Positions 16,638 to 25,787 of a stretch of DNA of 64,000 bases are shown here, piece after piece (position 1 is the first letter of the stretch; the number at the start of each line of letters is the position of its first letter). The notes under the pieces were generated by a model that was given only the letters and a program-made list of their open reading frames with translations, ran no database searches and had not been told where the DNA came from. A program made the translations under genes and the position numbers. Source of the stretch: Caenimonas soli (GTDB lineage Bacteria; Pseudomonadota; Gammaproteobacteria; Burkholderiales; Burkholderiaceae_C); contig NZ_JABJVV010000005.1 in the NCBI RefSeq assembly GCF_013155545.1, positions 186,001 to 250,000 of the forward strand. The letters are read 5' to 3'.

Positions 16638-17993
16638 GTGGCCGCACGACGACGAGTTTCCCCCACTGCCAACGTACCCGTCGGCGCGCAGGCCTGGTCG
16701 GTCCTTGCGGTCAGCACGCTGGCTTTCACGGTGTGCTTCATGGTCTGGATGATGTTCGGCGTCATCGGCATCCCGATCAAGAAGACGCTGAATCTCAATG
16801 CGACGCAGTTTGGCCTGCTCACCGCCATGCCGGTGCTAACCGGCTCCCTGGTGCGGGTACCGCTGGGCATTTGGACCGACCGCTACGGCGGGCGCATCGT
16901 GATGACTCTGCTGATGGCGCTGACCGTGCCAGCCATTTGGCTGATGTCGTATTCGACCCAATACTGGCACTTTCTGGTGATCGGCCTGTTCGTTGGCCTG
17001 GCCGGCGGCTCCTTTTCTGCCGGCACGCCTTACGTCGCCCGCTGGTTCCCGAAGGAGCGGCAGGGCTTCGCCATGGGGATCTACGGCGCCGGCAATTCCG
17101 GCGCGGCCGTCAACAAGTTCGTCGCGCCTGTGCTGCTGGTGGCCTTCGGCTGGACACTCGTCCCCCAGGTCTATGCCGCCGTCATGCTCGGTACCGTCCT
17201 GCTTTTCTGGTTCTTCAGCTACAGCGATCCCGCACACCAGGTTTCGAGCAGCGTCAAGTTCATCGACCAGATCAAGGCCCTGAAGGACCCCAAAGTGCTG
17301 CGCTATTGCCAGTACTACAGCATCGTCTTCGGCGGCTACGTCGCTTTGTCGCTATGGATGGTGCAGTACTACGTCGGCGAGTTCGGCCTGGACATTCGCG
17401 TCGCCGCCCTCCTGGCCGCCTGCTTTTCGTTGCCTGGGGGCGTGCTGCGCGCCATCGGCGGCTGGCTGTCGGATAAGTTCGGCGCCCACAGCGTCACCTG
17501 GTGGGTGATGTGGGTGAGCTGGATCTGCTTGTTCCTGCTCTCCTATCCGCAAACCGATTTCACCGTATTCACTGTCAACGGCCCGCGTACCTTCCATATC
17601 GGCCTGAACGTCTACACCTTCACCATCCTGATGTTGGTGCTGGGCATCGCCTGGGCGTTCGGCAAGGCCAGTGTCTTCAAGTACATCAGCGACGACTACC
17701 CCACCAACATCGGCGCCATTTCCGGCATCGTCGGTCTGGCGGGCGGCCTGGGCGGCTTCGTGCTGCCCATCATGTTCGGCGCATTGATGGACATCACCGG
17801 CATCCGCTCCAGCGCCTTCATGCTCATGTATGGCGTGGTTTGGGTCTCTCTGGTCTGGATGTACTGGAGCGAGGTGCGCAAGACGCAGGTGATGGGCGAG
17901 CACGCACCGCCCTCGCCGCTGGCGCAGATGCATGGAACGAACCCTGCAGCCATTCAGGGCCCCAGCCTTCAGGAACACTGGAGAACCACATGA
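16638..17993 (+). CDS. narK1: NarK1-type nitrate/proton symporter (major facilitator)
   Basis: A 451-residue polytopic transporter of the nitrate/nitrite porter family with about 12 membrane segments. Family hallmarks include the conserved glycine-rich stretches around GLAGGSFSAGTPYVARWFPKERQGFAMGIYGAGNSGAAVN and GLAGGLGGFVLPIMFG. The start is a GTG at 16638 with GGGAG about eight bases upstream. Its TGA overlaps the ATG of the second porter gene. In related operons NarK1 takes up nitrate with protons. A functional target enzyme is missing here because narG is cut. Confidence 0.92.
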   Translation: MAARRRVSPTANVPVGAQAWSVLAVSTLAFTVCFMVWMMFGVIGIPIKKTLNLNATQFGLLTAMPVLTGSLVRVPLGIWTDRYGGRIVMTLLMALTVPAIWLMSYSTQYWHFLVIGLFVGLAGGSFSAGTPYVARWFPKERQGFAMGIYGAGNSGAAVNKFVAPVLLVAFGWTLVPQVYAAVMLGTVLLFWFFSYSDPAHQVSSSVKFIDQIKALKDPKVLRYCQYYSIVFGGYVALSLWMVQYYVGEFGLDIRVAALLAACFSLPGGVLRAIGGWLSDKFGAHSVTWWVMWVSWICLFLLSYPQTDFTVFTVNGPRTFHIGLNVYTFTILMLVLGIAWAFGKASVFKYISDDYPTNIGAISGIVGLAGGLGGFVLPIMFGALMDITGIRSSAFMLMYGVVWVSLVWMYWSEVRKTQVMGEHAPPSPLAQMHGTNPAAIQGPSLQEHWRTT

Positions 17994-19645
17994 CAACGAC
18001 AACCACGCTGGTGTCGCCGCTGCGCAAGGGCGCCAGCGGCGCGAATATTGCCGATTGGCGCCCGGAAGACCCCGAGTTCTGGGAATCGACCGGCAAGCGG
18101 GTCGCCTACCGCAACCTCTGGATCTCGGTGCCCGCGCTCCTGTGCGGATTCGCGGTTTGGGGCATGTGGGGCATCATCGCGGTGCAGATGCTCAACCTGG
18201 GTTTCCCGTTCACCCAGGCCGAGCTGTTCACGCTTACGGCCATCGCGGGCATCGCCGGCGCGACGATGCGCATTCCCGCCTCGTTCCTGATCCGCCTGGC
18301 GGGGGGGCGCAACACCATCTTCCTCACCACTGCCATGTTGCTGGCGCCGGCCCTGGGCACCGGCATCGTGCTGCAGCACCCGGAGTGGCCGCTCTGGACT
18401 TTCCAGCTGATGGCGCTGTGGTGCGGCGTGGGCGGCGGCAACTTCGCCAGCTCGATGTCGAACATCAGCACGTTCTTTCCGAAGCGGCTGCAGGGCACGG
18501 CGCTGGGCCTGAACGCCGGATTAGGCAACTTCGGCGTGACCACGATGCAGATCGTCATTCCGCTGGTGATGACGCTTTCCATCTTCGGCAGCCTGGGCGG
18601 CGCCTCCACCACCCTTCTGAAAGACAGCGGCTGGATCTTCGGCAAGATCGCCGCGGGCACGCCCACGTGGATTCAGAACGCCGGCTTTGCCTGGGTGTTG
18701 TCGTTGGTGCCGCTTTCCGTCCTGTGCTGGTTCGGGATGAACAACCTCAAGACGGTGACACCCGATTCCGGCCATCCGCTGGTGGCCTTCGCCAAGATCA
18801 CCTGGCTCTACACGCTGGCCTTCATCCCGTCGATCCTGGGCCTCTACCTGTACCTGCCCAAACCCACCGGGCTGGGCCTCATCAGCATGTGGGTGGCGAT
18901 CCCGCTGGACATCGTGAGCGCGCTGCTGATCATGAAGCTCGCGGCTTTCGGCCCGATGAAGGAGAACGTCACCAAGCAGTTCGCGATCTTCAAGGACAAG
19001 CACACCTGGTCGCTCACCGCGCTGTACATCGTCACTTTCGGTTCGTTCATCGGCTTCTCGATGGCGCTGCCGCTTTCGATGAAGGTGATCTTCGGCGTCA
19101 GCCATGTGCCCGACGCGGCCGGCGTCATGCAGCACACCCTGAACAACCCGAACGCGCCCACGATCCTGGCCTATGCCTGGATCGGGCCCTTCGTCGGCGC
19201 CGCGGTGCGCCCGCTCGGCGGCTGGATCTCCGACAAGGTGGGCGGCTCCATCGTCACCCAGATCATCTCCGCCGTGATGGTGGTCGCTTCGGTCGCTGTC
19301 GGCTACGTGATGATGCAGGCTTACGCCTCGCCCACCCCCGAGCAGCACTTTCCTGCGTTCCTGGGCCTGTTCATCGTGCTTTTCGCCGCCAGCGGCATTG
19401 GCAATGGATCGACCTTCCGCACCATCGGCGTGATCTTCGACCGCACGCAGGCCGGGCCGGTACTGGGGTGGACCTCGGCGGTCGCCGCCTATGGCGCCTT
19501 CGTGGCGCCCATCGTCATCGGCGACCAGATCAAGGCCGGAACACCGCAGTACGCGATGTACGGTTTCGCAATCTTCTATGCCCTTTGCCTGGTGCTGAAC
19601 TGGTGGTTCTACCTGCGCAAGGGGGCTTACGTCAAAAACCCGTGA
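17990..19645 (+). CDS. narK2: NarK2-type nitrate/nitrite antiporter
   Basis: A 551-residue major facilitator protein of the same family but longer, with an extended N-terminus and an insert in the middle, as usual for NarK2. It has the nitrate-signature glycine stretches GGGNFASSMSNISTFFPKRLQGTALGLNAGLGN and AASGIGNGSTFRTIGVIF. The start ATG 17990 overlaps the narK1 stop (ATGA). It is followed after 33 bases by narG with an AGAGAAAA leader. The expected role is nitrite export in exchange for nitrate during nitrate respiration. Confidence 0.93.
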   Translation: MTTTTTLVSPLRKGASGANIADWRPEDPEFWESTGKRVAYRNLWISVPALLCGFAVWGMWGIIAVQMLNLGFPFTQAELFTLTAIAGIAGATMRIPASFLIRLAGGRNTIFLTTAMLLAPALGTGIVLQHPEWPLWTFQLMALWCGVGGGNFASSMSNISTFFPKRLQGTALGLNAGLGNFGVTTMQIVIPLVMTLSIFGSLGGASTTLLKDSGWIFGKIAAGTPTWIQNAGFAWVLSLVPLSVLCWFGMNNLKTVTPDSGHPLVAFAKITWLYTLAFIPSILGLYLYLPKPTGLGLISMWVAIPLDIVSALLIMKLAAFGPMKENVTKQFAIFKDKHTWSLTALYIVTFGSFIGFSMALPLSMKVIFGVSHVPDAAGVMQHTLNNPNAPTILAYAWIGPFVGAAVRPLGGWISDKVGGSIVTQIISAVMVVASVAVGYVMMQAYASPTPEQHFPAFLGLFIVLFAASGIGNGSTFRTIGVIFDRTQAGPVLGWTSAVAAYGAFVAPIVIGDQIKAGTPQYAMYGFAIFYALCLVLNWWFYLRKGAYVKNP

Positions 19646-19678: not shown

Positions 19679-22600
19679 ATGAGCCACTTTCTCGACCGCC
19701 TCACCTATTTCCAGCAGCCGCGCGAGCCTTTCTCCGGCGGCCACGGCCAGACGACCGGCGAAGACCGAACCTGGGAGGATGCCTACCGGAATCGATGGGC
19801 GCACGACAAGATCGTGCGCAGCACCCACGGCGTCAACTGCACCGGCTCGTGTTCCTGGAAAATCTACGTCAAAGGCGGCATCGTCAGCTGGGAAACCCAG
19901 CAGACGGACTACCCGCGGACGCGTTGGGACCTTCCGAACCACGAGCCACGGGGGTGCGCTCGCGGCGCCAGCTACAGCTGGTACCTGTACAGTGCAAACC
20001 GGGTCAAGTACCCCATGGTCCGCGGCCGCCTGCTCAAGAGCTGGCGCGAGGCACGCCTGACGCTCGGACCGGTCGAGGCCTGGGCCAGCATCGTCGCCGA
20101 CGACAAGAAACGGCGTGATTACCAATCCGTTCGTGGACTGGGTGGATTCGTTCGCTCGAGCTGGGACGAGGTCAACGAGATCATCGCGGCCGCCAACGTC
20201 CATACGATCAAGCGGCATGGGCCGGATCGCGTGATCGGCTTCTCGCCGATCCCGGCGATGTCGATGGTCAGCTACGCGGCCGGGTCGCGCTACCTGAGCC
20301 TCATAGGCGGCGTCTGCATGAGCTTCTACGACTGGTACTGCGACTTGCCTCCTTCCAGCCCGCAGATCTGGGGCGAGCAGACGGACGTTCCGGAATCGGC
20401 CGACTGGTACAACTCCAGCTACATCATCGCCTGGGGTTCCAACGTGCCCCAGACGCGGACCCCGGACGCCCACTTCTTCACCGAGGTCCGCTACAAGGGC
20501 ACCAAGACCGTGGCGGTCACGCCGGACTATTCGGAAGTGGCCAAGCTGGCCGACATCTGGATGAACCCGAGACAGGGCACCGATGCGGCCGTGGCCATGG
20601 CCATGGGCCACGTCATCCTCAGGGACTTCTATTTCGGGGGCGGCGGGCGCGAGCGCAGCGCGTACTTCGACGAGTACGTGCGCCGCTACACCGACATGCC
20701 CATGCTGGTCATGCTCAAGGAGCACGCCCTGCTCTCCGGTGAGGTGGTCATGGTGCCCCACCGGTATGTCCGCGCCAGCGACTTTAACGGCAAGCTGGGG
20801 CAGGACAACAATCCCGAGTGGAAAACCGTTGCCTTCGACGAATCCGGCAAGGTGGTGCTGCCCAATGGCGCCATCGGTTTCAGGTGGGGGCCCGACGGAC
20901 GGGCGGACCAGGGCCAGTGGAACCTGGAGGCGAAGGAAGCCCGCAGCGGCGGCGACGTGAGGCTCAAGCTGTCCGTGATGGAGGGCGAGCAGCAGGGCGC
21001 CTGCGAAACGGCGCGGGTCGGCTTCCCCTATTTCGGGGGGATCGCCAGCGAGCACTTCCCGAACAACGAGCAATCGGACGTGCTGGTGCGCACGGTGCCG
21101 GTCCAACGCATCTCGCTCGGCAAGGCCGGCGAAGAGCGTTCCGCTCTCGTGGCGACCGTGTTCGATCTGCAGGTGGCCAACTACGGGATCGCGCGGGGCC
21201 TCGAGGGCGAATTCGCCGCGCACAGTTTCGACGAGGACACACCCTACACCCCCGCCTGGCAGGAGCGTATCACCGGCACGCCCCGTTCGCAGCTCATCAC
21301 GGTGGCGCACCAGTTCGCCGAAAACGCCCACAAGACCCAGGGGCGCTCCATGGTGATCATCGGCGCGGCCATGAACCACTGGTACCACAGCGACATGAAC
21401 TACCGCGGCGTGATCAACATGCTGATGATGTGCGGCTGCGTCGGCAAGAGCGGCGGTGGATGGGCGCACTATGTCGGTCAGGAAAAACTGCGGCCGCAGA
21501 CGGGCTGGACCGCCCTCGCCTTCGCGCTCGACTGGATCCGGCCACCGCGCCAGATGAACAGCACCAGCTTTTTCTATGCCCACACCGACCAGTGGCGCTA
21601 CGAAAAGCTGGGCATGGACGAAGTGGTCTCGCCGCTGGCCGACAAGAAGCTCTATGGCGGCAGCATGATCGACTACAACGTGCGCGCGGAGCGCATGGGC
21701 TGGCTGCCGAGTGCGCCGCAGTTGCAGACCAATCCGTTGCAAGTCGTCCGCGACGCCCAGGCAGCGGGCGCGGACCCGAAGGATTTCGCGGCGAAAGGAC
21801 TCAAGGACGGCTCGTTGAAGATGAGCTGCACCGACCCCGATCACCCGGACAACTGGCCGCGCAACATGTTCGTCTGGCGCTCCAACATCCTGGGCTCGTC
21901 CGGCAAGGGACACGAGTACTTCCTCAAGCACCTGCTGGGCACGAGCAACGGGGTCCAGGGCCAGGACCTGGGCGCCGAAGACGCGCGACCGACCGAGGTC
22001 GTCTGGCGCGACAAGGCGCCGGAAGGCAAGCTGGACCTGCTGGTCACGCTCGACTTCCGCATGAGCACCACCTGCCTCTACTCCGATATCGTGCTCCCCA
22101 CGGCCACCTGGTACGAGAAGAACGACCTCAACACCAGCGACATGCATCCTTTCATCCACCCGCTGTCGACCGCGGTGGACCCGGCCTGGCAGTCGCGCAG
22201 CGACTGGGACATCTACAAGGGCTTCGCGAAAAAGTTCAGCGAGGTCTGCGTGGGCCACCTGGGCGTGGAGCGCGAGCTGGTGCTGTCGCCCCTGATGCAC
22301 GATAGCCCGTCCGAATTGGCACAGCCCTTCGACGTCAAGGAATGGGCTCGCGGCGACTGCGAGCTCGTTCCCGGCAAGACGGCGCCGAACATGCAGGTCG
22401 TCGAGCGCGACTACCCCAATGTCTTCAAGCGCTTCACCGCGCTGGGCCCGCTGATGGCCAAGGCCGGCAACGGCGGCAAGGGTATCGGCTGGAACACGCA
22501 GACCGAGGTCAAGCAGCTGGGCGAACTGAACGGCCTCGTCAAGGAAGAAGGCGCCACCAAGGGCTTGCCGAAGATCGAGACCGACATCGACGCGTGCGAG

Positions 22601-23071
22601 GTCGTCCTGCAACTGGCGCCGGAAACCAATGGCCACGTGGCCGTGAAGGCGTGGGAAGCGCTAGGCAAGCAGACCGGACGGGACCACGCCCACCTGGCCC
22701 TGCACCGGCAGGACGAGAAGATCCGGTTCCGCGACGTGCAGGCGCAACCGCGCAAGATCATCAGCTCCCCGACCTGGAGCGGCATCGAGAGCGAGACGGT
22801 GTCGTACAACGCCGGTTACACGAACGTCCACGAACTGATCCCATGGCGGACGCTGACTGGGCGCCAGCAGTTCTACATGGACCATCCCTGGATGATCGCC
22901 TTCGGCGAGGGGTTCAGCACGTACCGCCCGCCGGTGGACCTGAAGACAACGGGTGGCATCCGGGGCATCCGTTCCAACGGAAATCCGGAGATTGCGCTGA
23001 ACTTCATCACGCCCCACCAGAAGTGGGGCATCCACTCGACCTACACGGACAACCTGCTGATGTTGACGCTT
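19679..23071 (+). pseudogene. narG: Respiratory nitrate reductase alpha subunit, 3' end deleted
   Basis: NarG is the Mo-bis-MGD catalytic subunit of membrane-bound nitrate reductase. The first 1131 residues are intact and in frame, including the FS0 cluster ligands H50, C54 and C58 (HGVNCTGSC) and the late conserved HSTYTDNLLMLTL. At 23,071 the family sequence stops abruptly, where full-length NarG (about 1245 residues) continues with SRGGP. The frame then runs on to 23,686 through reversed sequence of an ABC transporter operon, adding about 204 foreign residues. narH, narJ and narI are absent. The gene is therefore non-functional as read, unless the join is an assembly error. Confidence 0.93.
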
Positions 23072-23302
23072 CCAGGCCTGATCGAAGATGACGTCGCCGC
23101 CAAGTGTCATCCGGCCCTTTGTCGGTGTCGTGATGGCACCCAGGCACTTCAGGAGCGTGGTCTTGCCCGAGCCGCTGGGCCCGATCAATCCGACCACCTC
23201 ACCGGGCGCCACGCTCATGTTGACATCCTTGAGAGCGTCGACGGCAGCCGCACCCGCGCCGTAGCGCTTGCTCAAGCCCTCGATCCGGATGCCGTCGGCC
23301 AT
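23072..23302 (-). pseudogene. ABC transporter ATPase, only N-terminal 77 residues left
   Basis: This gene begins normally (MADGIRIEGLSKRYG) and contains Walker A, GPSGSGKTT, near residue 45. The family match holds to the W at 23,072-23,074 (VIFDQAW). Beyond it the frame reads antisense narG, so the Q-loop, signature motif and Walker B are all lost. It is the third gene of an operon after a membrane fusion protein and an FtsX-type permease, the DevBCA/MacAB-like layout. Without an ATPase the exporter cannot work unless another subunit substitutes. Confidence 0.9.
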
Positions 23303-23304
23303 CT

Positions 23305-23383
23305 CAGCCTCCGCCGAGCCGCCTCAAGGAGGCTGAAGCCCCCTCGGGGGGCAGCGAACCACGCGAAGCGGGGAGCGTGGGGG
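23305..23383. repeat. GC-rich double-palindrome, REP-like element
   Basis: Two adjacent inverted repeats lie between the permease and ATPase genes. CAGCCTCC (23305-23312) pairs with GGAGGCTG (23328-23335). GCCCCC (23338-23343) pairs with GGGGGC (23347-23352). The trailing GCAGCGAACCACGCGAAGCGGGGAGCGTGG is also imperfectly palindromic. I recall similar elements in intergenic spaces of Comamonadaceae, but I cannot show a second copy in this window. Confidence 0.55.
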
Positions 23384-23388
23384 TCATG

Positions 23389-24582
23389 TCAGCCGCCGAT
23401 GGCCGCAGCCGGGTCGACATTCAGGGCCGCGCGGATGCCCAGGGTGCTGGCCAGCGCGCACACGGCCATCACCATGGCAAAACCTGTTACGGCATCGCCG
23501 CTCTCGAGAAGCACGTACTTGGGAAACAGCGGCGCCCACGCGCTGGCGGCCAGCTTGCCGACGATGAAGCCGATCACGCCCAGCCCGAGCGCCTGCTGCA
23601 GGATCATCGAGGCGATCGTCCTGTCATGTGTGCCGATCAGCTTGAGGACTGCGATTTCGCGCAACTTCCCCAGGGTCATCGTATAGATGATGAAGGCCAC
23701 GATCGCCGCGCTCACGACCGCCAGGATGACGAGGAACATGCCGATCTGCCTGGCCGCCGTGGCGATCAGCTTGGCGACCAGCAGCTCCTCCATCTCCGCG
23801 CGTGAATAGGCCTGCAAGTGTTTCCAGCGCCGGATGGTCTGTGCCAGCACGTCGGCGGACCGCCCTTCAGCCATGCGCACCAGCACGGCGTTGACCTGGT
23901 GGCTGCTGGTCTGCAATGCGGTGACGGCCTCCAGCAGACCCGGCAGGCCCGGCCGGTCAAAAGCCGGATTGCCGGCGATGCGCTCCCGCTCGCTCACGAT
24001 GGCATCGTTGTCCTTGAGGAACTGCGCCTGCTGCGCATCCTTGAGGGCAATGAACACCATGGGGTCCCCGCCGGAGGACACCGTGCGGCGGGTCAGGCCC
24101 ACCACGGTGTAGATGTGGCGGCGGATGCGGATGCGCTCACCCAGCCAGAACCCGGTCCTGACATCGGCGAGGGCCTCATAGTGGCTGCGGGTCGTGCGCC
24201 GGCCGGCCACCAGGTGGGTGGGCTCGCCAGGCTGGCCCGGCTCGAAACCCACCACCATGGCCCGGACGTCCCCGGCGCTACCGCGCACCTGAAGGGTCTG
24301 GTAGGTCACATTCGCGGCCCGCGCCACGCCCGGCAGCCCGAGCACGTCCCGGTACACATCGTCGCGCAGGCTGGACGATTCCACATAGGGGCCCTGCGTA
24401 TCCTTCTGCACCACCCAGAGGTCGGCGCCGCTGTTGTTCAGCAGAACCTTGGCGTCATCCACCATGCCGCGGTAGACGCCGGCGAAAGTCAGCGTGACGC
24501 CGATCAGCAGTCCCAGGCCGATCCCGGTGAGGACAAACTTTCCCCGCGAGTGCAGGATGTCCCGGCCGGCCAGGCTGATCAC
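23389..24582 (-). CDS. ABC transporter permease, FtsX/DevC type
   Basis: A 397-residue inner-membrane protein. One membrane helix near the N-terminus (about 15-40) is followed by a large periplasmic domain and three C-terminal helices (about 275-390), the FtsX/MacB topology. The motif ILGKLREIAVLKLIGTHDRTI-like stretch (here TLGKLREIAVLKLIG) is typical of the coupling region. It overlaps the fusion protein gene by four bases (ATGA). It pairs with the truncated ATPase, so the complex is probably inactive. DevBCA relatives export lipids or glycolipids; the cargo here is unknown. Confidence 0.88.
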   Translation of the reverse strand: MISLAGRDILHSRGKFVLTGIGLGLLIGVTLTFAGVYRGMVDDAKVLLNNSGADLWVVQKDTQGPYVESSSLRDDVYRDVLGLPGVARAANVTYQTLQVRGSAGDVRAMVVGFEPGQPGEPTHLVAGRRTTRSHYEALADVRTGFWLGERIRIRRHIYTVVGLTRRTVSSGGDPMVFIALKDAQQAQFLKDNDAIVSERERIAGNPAFDRPGLPGLLEAVTALQTSSHQVNAVLVRMAEGRSADVLAQTIRRWKHLQAYSRAEMEELLVAKLIATAARQIGMFLVILAVVSAAIVAFIIYTMTLGKLREIAVLKLIGTHDRTIASMILQQALGLGVIGFIVGKLAASAWAPLFPKYVLLESGDAVTGFAMVMAVCALASTLGIRAALNVDPAAAIGG

Positions 24583-25787
24583 TGCGGGCCGCCGATCAGC
24601 GAATCGACGACCCGGACCCGGCTGCCCTCGCCCAACTCGGCTTCGCTGTGAATCACCACGGCGTCGCCGGCCTTCAGCCCGCGAGTGACCTGCAGCATGC
24701 CGTTGTCACCCTCGGCACCGACATCGATGCTGACGAAGCGAAGCTTGCCTTCCTGGTGCGCCCATACGCCAGTGTGGGCACCGCGTTGCCTTAGCGCGGC
24801 ATTGGAAACCAGCAGCGCACCATGCACGGCGGGCAGTCTCACCAGCACCTCGGCCATTTCGCCAGTCGACAAGCCTGCCGGCGGGCTGTCAAAAGTGACT
24901 TGAGCGATGCGCTCCTCGGTAATGCTGTCGCTCGCGGGATCGATGCGCGCGACCCTGCCCGGCACGGGGGCGTGCGAGCTGGAGCGCAACGTGATCTGGA
25001 CGGGCAAACCCGGGCCGAGGCCCGCGGCGCGGCTCTGGTCCAGCCGGCTCGTGACCCAGAGGCTGCCCGGGTCGAACAGTTTGATCACGGCCTGGCCGGC
25101 CACGACGGTGGATCCGGGCTCGGCGACGCGCGCCGTCACGATGCCGTCGAAGGGCGCCTGCAGCCGGATGTTGCCGCGTTGCTGCCGCGCAGCCTCCCGC
25201 TCCGCCTCCAGACGGACCTGGTCCTCGCGCGCGCCGGCCAACGCCGACTCCACAGCCGCCAGCTGGGCTCGCGCCGAATGCAGCAGTTGCAGTTTGGCGT
25301 CCACGACGCTGATGCTGACGAAGTTCTGCCGGCCCAGGTCGACATAGCGTGCGGCGTCGCCCTCGGCCAGGGCCAGGCGGCTGTGCGCATCGCGCACCTG
25401 GGCCTGCGCCGCGGCCACGGCGCTCCGGGCGCGGGCGACCGCGGCTGATGAAGACGCCAGCCGGGCATCCAGGTCCACCGCGTCCATCTCGGCGAGCAAT
25501 TGGCCGGCCCGGACGTGGTCGCCGACATCGACCAGCACGCGCTGCACCCGCCCGGCTGTCGTCGGGCCGATGAAGTATGCGCGCCTTGCCTCCACGACAC
25601 CGATGCCGAAGAGCGAAGGTTCGAGCGTACCTTCCACCACCTGCGCCAGCGTCACCCTGGTGGATGCGAGCGGTCCGCTGCGGCTCGCGAACCAGCCAAA
25701 GCCCAGCAGGATAGCGACACCTGCAGCAACCCAGAGGGCACCCTTCGCGGCTCGACGGTACGACTGTGGATCCTTCAGGATATTCAT
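24579..25787 (-). CDS. Periplasmic adaptor (membrane fusion protein) of an ABC exporter
   Basis: A 402-residue HlyD/AcrA-type adaptor. An N-terminal membrane anchor (about 15-35) is followed by a biotinyl-lipoyl half (VGDHVRAGQLLAEMD), an alpha-helical hairpin rich in A, R and E (about 105-200) and the second lipoyl half IRLQAPFDGIVTARVAEPGSTV. It links the permease to an outer-membrane channel, which is not encoded here. It is the first gene of the operon. An FNR-type palindrome at 25825-25838 is only 38 bases upstream of its start. Confidence 0.9.
   Translation of the reverse strand: MNILKDPQSYRRAAKGALWVAAGVAILLGFGWFASRSGPLASTRVTLAQVVEGTLEPSLFGIGVVEARRAYFIGPTTAGRVQRVLVDVGDHVRAGQLLAEMDAVDLDARLASSSAAVARARSAVAAAQAQVRDAHSRLALAEGDAARYVDLGRQNFVSISVVDAKLQLLHSARAQLAAVESALAGAREDQVRLEAEREAARQQRGNIRLQAPFDGIVTARVAEPGSTVVAGQAVIKLFDPGSLWVTSRLDQSRAAGLGPGLPVQITLRSSSHAPVPGRVARIDPASDSITEERIAQVTFDSPPAGLSTGEMAEVLVRLPAVHGALLVSNAALRQRGAHTGVWAHQEGKLRFVSIDVGAEGDNGMLQVTRGLKAGDAVVIHSEAELGEGSRVRVVDSLIGGPQ

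Follow-up and report, generated by a model that had tools for sequence, protein, structure and literature searches.

How the nitrate reductase gene narG came to be joined tail to tail with an ABC exporter ATPase gene, both of them cut, is the question raised by this locus of Caenimonas soli. We analyzed a stretch of 64,000 nucleotides (the window) that corresponds to positions 186,001-250,000 of contig C45 in an assembly of 5,637,765 bases and 51 contigs, with completeness scored at 100% and contamination at 3.08%. Comparisons of sequences indicate that a single recent deletion probably fused two convergent gene clusters, its ends joined by 2 bp. This is an ordinary kind of recent gene loss, with an anatomy that is unusually clear.

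The narG gene is cut at codon 1131. The remnant (19,679-23,071, plus strand) matched the family model TIGR01580 with 1930.6 bits over profile positions 1-1111 of 1235, and corresponds to residues 1-1111 of the 1247 residues of Escherichia coli NarG (PDB 1q16 chain A); the gene does not encode a full-length catalytic subunit. The match spans residues 2-1131 of the reading frame, with codon 1131 ending at 23,071, in agreement with the initial annotation that the NarG match stops after residue 1131. The missing C-terminal end comprises about 140 residues (1112-1247 in 1q16 numbering, 1129-1270 by the NarG of G020, whose two clusters are the closest to those of the window). The reading frame is open past the join (19,679-23,686, plus strand, 1335 aa), with a read-through tail of 204 codons and a stop (23,072-23,686, plus strand) that translates antisense ATPase and permease DNA.

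On the other side of the join, codons 1-77 of the exporter ATPase gene remain (23,072-23,302, minus strand). The remnant has a PF00005 match at the N-terminal end, keeps the Walker A motif GPSGSGKT, and ends in FDQAW; everything past residue 77 is gone. An intact relative (L023, 6210-6953) has 247 residues, so that two thirds of the window's gene is missing and, as had been proposed, both genes have lost conserved core sequence.

The two genes meet at a break with 2 nt of microhomology. When the sequence was compared base by base with two relatives of each gene, the breakpoint fell at 23,069-23,070, at a shared CT. Likeness to the relatives' narG DNA ends at 23,070 in most of them (codon 1131), likeness to ATPase-gene DNA starts at 23,068-23,070 in the closest relatives, and from 23,069 onward the sequence is antisense to ATPase codons 1-77. 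The initial annotation had placed the cut at 23,071/23,072; the join is real in the sequence, but it is not clean, given the CT overlap. Both parental sequences can be aligned to the break and share only two bases there, as in illegitimate recombination. So short an overlap also weighs against an assembly chimera, in which two distant or foreign pieces were misjoined, because assemblers need far more shared sequence than this to make such an error.

No insertion sequence or repeat marks the join, as had been noted from the sequence. There was no direct repeat of at least 12 nt within 22,571-23,571, and the insertion sequence end or repeat expected at the break for a deletion mediated by such elements was not found. 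An imperfect 16-nt inverted pair (88%; 22,956-22,971 and 23,432-23,447) flanks the join and may be due to chance. A dispersed intergenic repeat of about 86 bp (23,303-23,388), which begins about 230 bp to the right of the join, separates the ATPase and permease genes. Other copies in this genome reach 83% identity, and copies across the genus reach 97% over shorter parts; in G020, the ATPase and permease genes abut with no such repeat between them.

The sequences missing from the two genes were not found elsewhere in the assembly. We searched the 51 contigs with the DNA of G020 from the 3' end of narG to narI, and the sole match was 102 bp at 75% identity in a gene for another oxidoreductase on contig C18. 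With the NarH protein as query, the only two matches were distant ones (39% and 37%), narJ was not found in the assembly by DNA search, and the NarI family (PF02665) had no match in this genome, compared with matches in 4 of 14 control genomes; neither a NarH nor a NarI subunit appears to be encoded. A 9.5-kb query from narG onward in G050, with narHJI and genes assigned by family to a PpiC-type isomerase, carbonic anhydrase, nitronate monooxygenase and ribonucleotide reductase, found only the narG of the window and the same gene on C18. The nitronate monooxygenase and ribonucleotide reductase genes need not have been at this locus, since they are not neighbors of narI in G020 or G052. A DNA search with the 3' part of the ATPase gene returned only short matches to other genes. 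The absence of narHJI that had been read from the window thus holds for the whole assembly in protein, family and DNA searches.

These absences weigh against several ways of making the join. A balanced inversion or an internal misjoin is disfavored, because the lost halves should then remain elsewhere in the assembly, and a chimera of pieces from this genome meets the same difficulty. A local artefact or a mixed population, in which a minority deletion variant was assembled or about 15 kb was skipped while intact copies existed in the sample, would suit both an undecayed remnant and the linked arrangement of a sister genus described below. However, if the intact allele were in the majority, contigs with narHJI would be expected, and none was found in the assembly; we regard this explanation as very unlikely.

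No second nitrate reductase was identified in the genome. There were nine matches to the NarG model, and the narG remnant alone passed the cut-off of 1084.15. All matches to NapA were below the cut-off (best 160.1 versus 930.55 bits). The NarH-like gene on C18, which is the best such match in the genome, was rejected as a Nar subunit: it encodes an Fe-S protein between a 988-aa molybdopterin-type oxidoreductase and a 310-aa membrane anchor protein (L159, 7148-11,783), a cluster that, read by eye, we take to be a sulfite-dehydrogenase-like complex (SoeABC). It adjoins an open reading frame labeled by eye as a SulP-like transporter.

The two sides of the join are similar in composition. Tetranucleotide bias to the left and right of the join on the contig was correlated with r = 0.984, and the 20 kb on each side gave 0.958 and 0.960 against seven pooled stretches of other contigs, a test that is blind to a chimera with a close relative. 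A chimera of foreign DNA would be compatible with the contamination of 3.08%, but not readily with this similarity.

The genes upstream of the break appear to be intact, and their order is that of nar clusters in the same genus. The nitrate/nitrite transporter gene narK1 (16,638-17,993, plus strand) covers positions 3-368 of the 368 in TIGR00886, with a score (208.9 bits) below the curated cut-off of 311.7, and its product is 81-87% identical to the NarK1 proteins encoded next to narG at three loci (L021, L022, and L025). The narK2 gene (17,990-19,645, plus strand; PF07690) is a frame of 551 aa whose start we picked by comparison with relatives; its last 516 residues are 72-74% identical to NarK2 of the same three loci. 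The view that narK1, narK2, fnr and hemN are intact agrees with our results, in that all four appear full-length when judged by how much of the family models or of relatives they cover. The nar clusters of G020, G050 and G052 have the same narK1-narK2-narG order, with the window's NarG 93% identical to that of G020 over the retained part, but they run on through narHJI, ppiC and a carbonic anhydrase gene whereas the window is cut at narG codon 1131. Of 14 narG loci examined with their flanks in the genus, 13 had all of narH, narJ and narI; the fourteenth (L173) has narH and then the end of the contig.

Four nar loci in other members of the genus (L160, L161, L171, and L172) have genes for a histidine kinase and regulator pair (NarX/NarL-like) directly upstream of narK1, and in its place the window has hemN, fnr, a DksA/TraR-type gene and a hemerythrin gene. 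In G014, narG is in two pieces in different frames and is followed by narHJI (L169, 5696-9441), possibly a frameshift or a sequencing error.

The join was found in this genome only. None of the 59 other genomes of the genus had it, nor did any of the matches listed from the family search (399 genomes, 192 with a match). There were no exact matches in viral contigs, and 401 plasmid records matched, none covering 80% of the query. Among the titles returned on Ramlibacter nitrate reductase or narG, none concerned such a deletion. Occurrence in a single genome is what a chimera would give as well.

Within the genus, the two clusters are not seen together. Both sides of the join were matched in five genomes (G005, G020, G037, G043, and G044), on different contigs in all five, and in G020 both clusters are deep inside their contigs (C114, at 190 of 453 kb, and C180, at 190 of 229 kb). 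This pattern is what one would expect of an unbalanced rearrangement, that is, a translocation, an insertion or a very large deletion that brought together clusters that were not neighbors, with loss at both ends.

A sister genus has the two clusters as convergent neighbors. In three of its genomes (G253, G326, and G388), whose regions were chosen for matching both sides of the join, an intact narK1-narK2-narGHJI-ppiC cluster faces an adaptor-permease-ATPase operon; the carbonic anhydrase gene was found in two of the three by this test. The clusters and their facing orientation are those of the window; the difference is that the positions equivalent to the break are 14.2 kb (G253), 15.8 kb (G326) and 15.4 kb (G388) apart, with narHJI and ppiC between them. 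The interval in G326 also encodes a SirB-family protein, a PilJ/GAF histidine kinase and a LuxR-type regulator (which we read as NarX/NarL-like), a nitroreductase-family protein, a chemotaxis receptor, a hemerythrin protein, a FixG-type protein, and three open reading frames without a family match.

Other arrangements were also seen in the family. G153, of the same sister genus, had a narG match only. Among the matches listed, both clusters were on different contigs in G154, G175, G251, G446 and G447, about 1 Mb apart in G210, and on one contig but in another orientation in G211. A search of other genera gave a weak negative: no gene for NarG, NarH, NarJ, NarI, PpiC or carbonic anhydrase was found near the exporter in the best 80 of 563 loci, with flanks of at most 10 kb that are too short for the layout of G326.

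The layout in the sister genus suggests most simply that the window is a region of this kind from which one segment has been removed. A deletion is favored because the missing parts are not in the assembly and because the undeleted clusters are convergent and about 15 kb apart in three genomes. A random misjoin would rarely reproduce neighbors of this kind, and we consider a chimera quite unlikely. An unbalanced rearrangement is unlikely in view of the linked, convergent order in the three genomes, and a simple deletion takes one step. Of the two possibilities raised at the outset, a one-step deletion disabling both genes or a chimeric assembly, the first is now the favored one.

Based on these results, we propose the following course of events for the deletion. 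Before the event, narK1-narK2-narGHJI, probably followed by ppiC and the carbonic anhydrase gene, would have run rightward, and an adaptor-permease-ATPase exporter operon would have run leftward, toward the nar cluster. The deletion would then have taken out everything between narG codon 1131 and ATPase codon 78, a segment of probably about 14-16 kb if the spacing resembled that of the sister genus, and the ends would have been joined over the 2 bp of shared sequence by illegitimate (microhomology) recombination. The cell would be left with no respiratory Nar complex and with an exporter that lacks its own working ATPase. We infer the size of the deletion, the route of recombination and the loss of function, as well as the former linkage in this lineage, which is suggested by analogy with one other genus.

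The narG remnant has no sign of decay or of relaxed selection. It contains no stop and no frameshift. Its unique departures at the 795 columns that are otherwise invariant number 7, which is not elevated relative to the range of 2-14 in 11 relatives (the 14 narG loci of the genus minus L173, which is cut, L168, which is 65% identical, and L169, which is in two pieces). In three-taxon decompositions, omega was 0.048-0.052 on the window's branch, compared with 0.049-0.055 in G020, 0.063-0.065 in G050, and 0.104 in G052. For the time spent without constraint, we obtained an upper bound of 0-2.3% of a branch with dS of 0.395, a value that varies with the background omega and is based on an approximate site count; on this scale the event would be very young. 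We therefore rejected relaxed selection on the remnant and conclude that the event is recent or artificial, as the initial annotation had suggested. An artefact would give the same result, and a remnant that is undecayed up to the break also fits a chimera.

The rest of the exporter operon appears to be intact. The FtsX/MacB-type permease gene (23,389-24,582, minus strand) matched PF02687 and PF12704, and the gene for a membrane-fusion (HlyD/RND adaptor) protein (24,579-25,787, minus strand) matched TIGR01730 with 167.1 bits, all over the cut-offs; a match to the DevC model TIGR01185 was below its cut-off. The adaptor and permease of a MacB/DevC-type ABC exporter are thus present, and its ATP-binding subunit is incomplete, with 77 codons left. 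Of the best 80 among 563 related loci, 79 contain a relative of the ATPase (at least 70% identity), and in the remaining locus (L063) the contig ends right after the permease. The exporter would be without its own motor unless another ATPase substitutes. The permease has 5 departures at columns that are at least 98% conserved, the joint second highest count among 86 sequences (highest, 14). Four such departures occur in its nearest relative, and two of the window's five sites are each common to one other sequence. In Candidatus Ferrigenium altingense, the exporter ATPase is matched a second time, in part (L097, 16,310-16,885; residues 49-242, 82% identity), about 4 kb beyond the intact exporter operon.

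The deletion is expected to abolish respiratory nitrate reduction. From what is known of the enzyme, no Nar complex can form, because NarH and NarI are gone along with the C-terminal end of NarG. NirK, over its cut-off, is present on contig C51 and no NapA is over its cut-off, so respiratory nitrate reduction was probably lost and nitrite reduction kept. Judged from its gene content, the organism probably reduces nitrite and can no longer respire nitrate. We think it more likely than not that one very recent deletion in a nirK-bearing member of a narGHJI lineage took the nitrate step along with the exporter but left the nitrate transporters and fnr intact, and that the birth of a nitrite-dependent partial denitrifier has been captured here to the base. 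An undecayed narG of 1131 codons, with 1930.6 bits against the cut-off of 1084.15, can thus occur without a nitrate reductase, and surveys based on narG would miscount such an organism because the remnant is far over the family cut-off.

Gene loss is among the accepted origins of partial denitrifiers, which are common. The locus provides a clean example of a fresh, single-step loss for which a candidate ancestral arrangement has been identified. Denitrifiers with a truncated pathway have been reported (for example, PMC4689864 and PMC4770552). Part of the denitrification chain is reported to be missing in them as it is here, and the window differs in that the loss of the nitrate step is seen as one fresh breakpoint.
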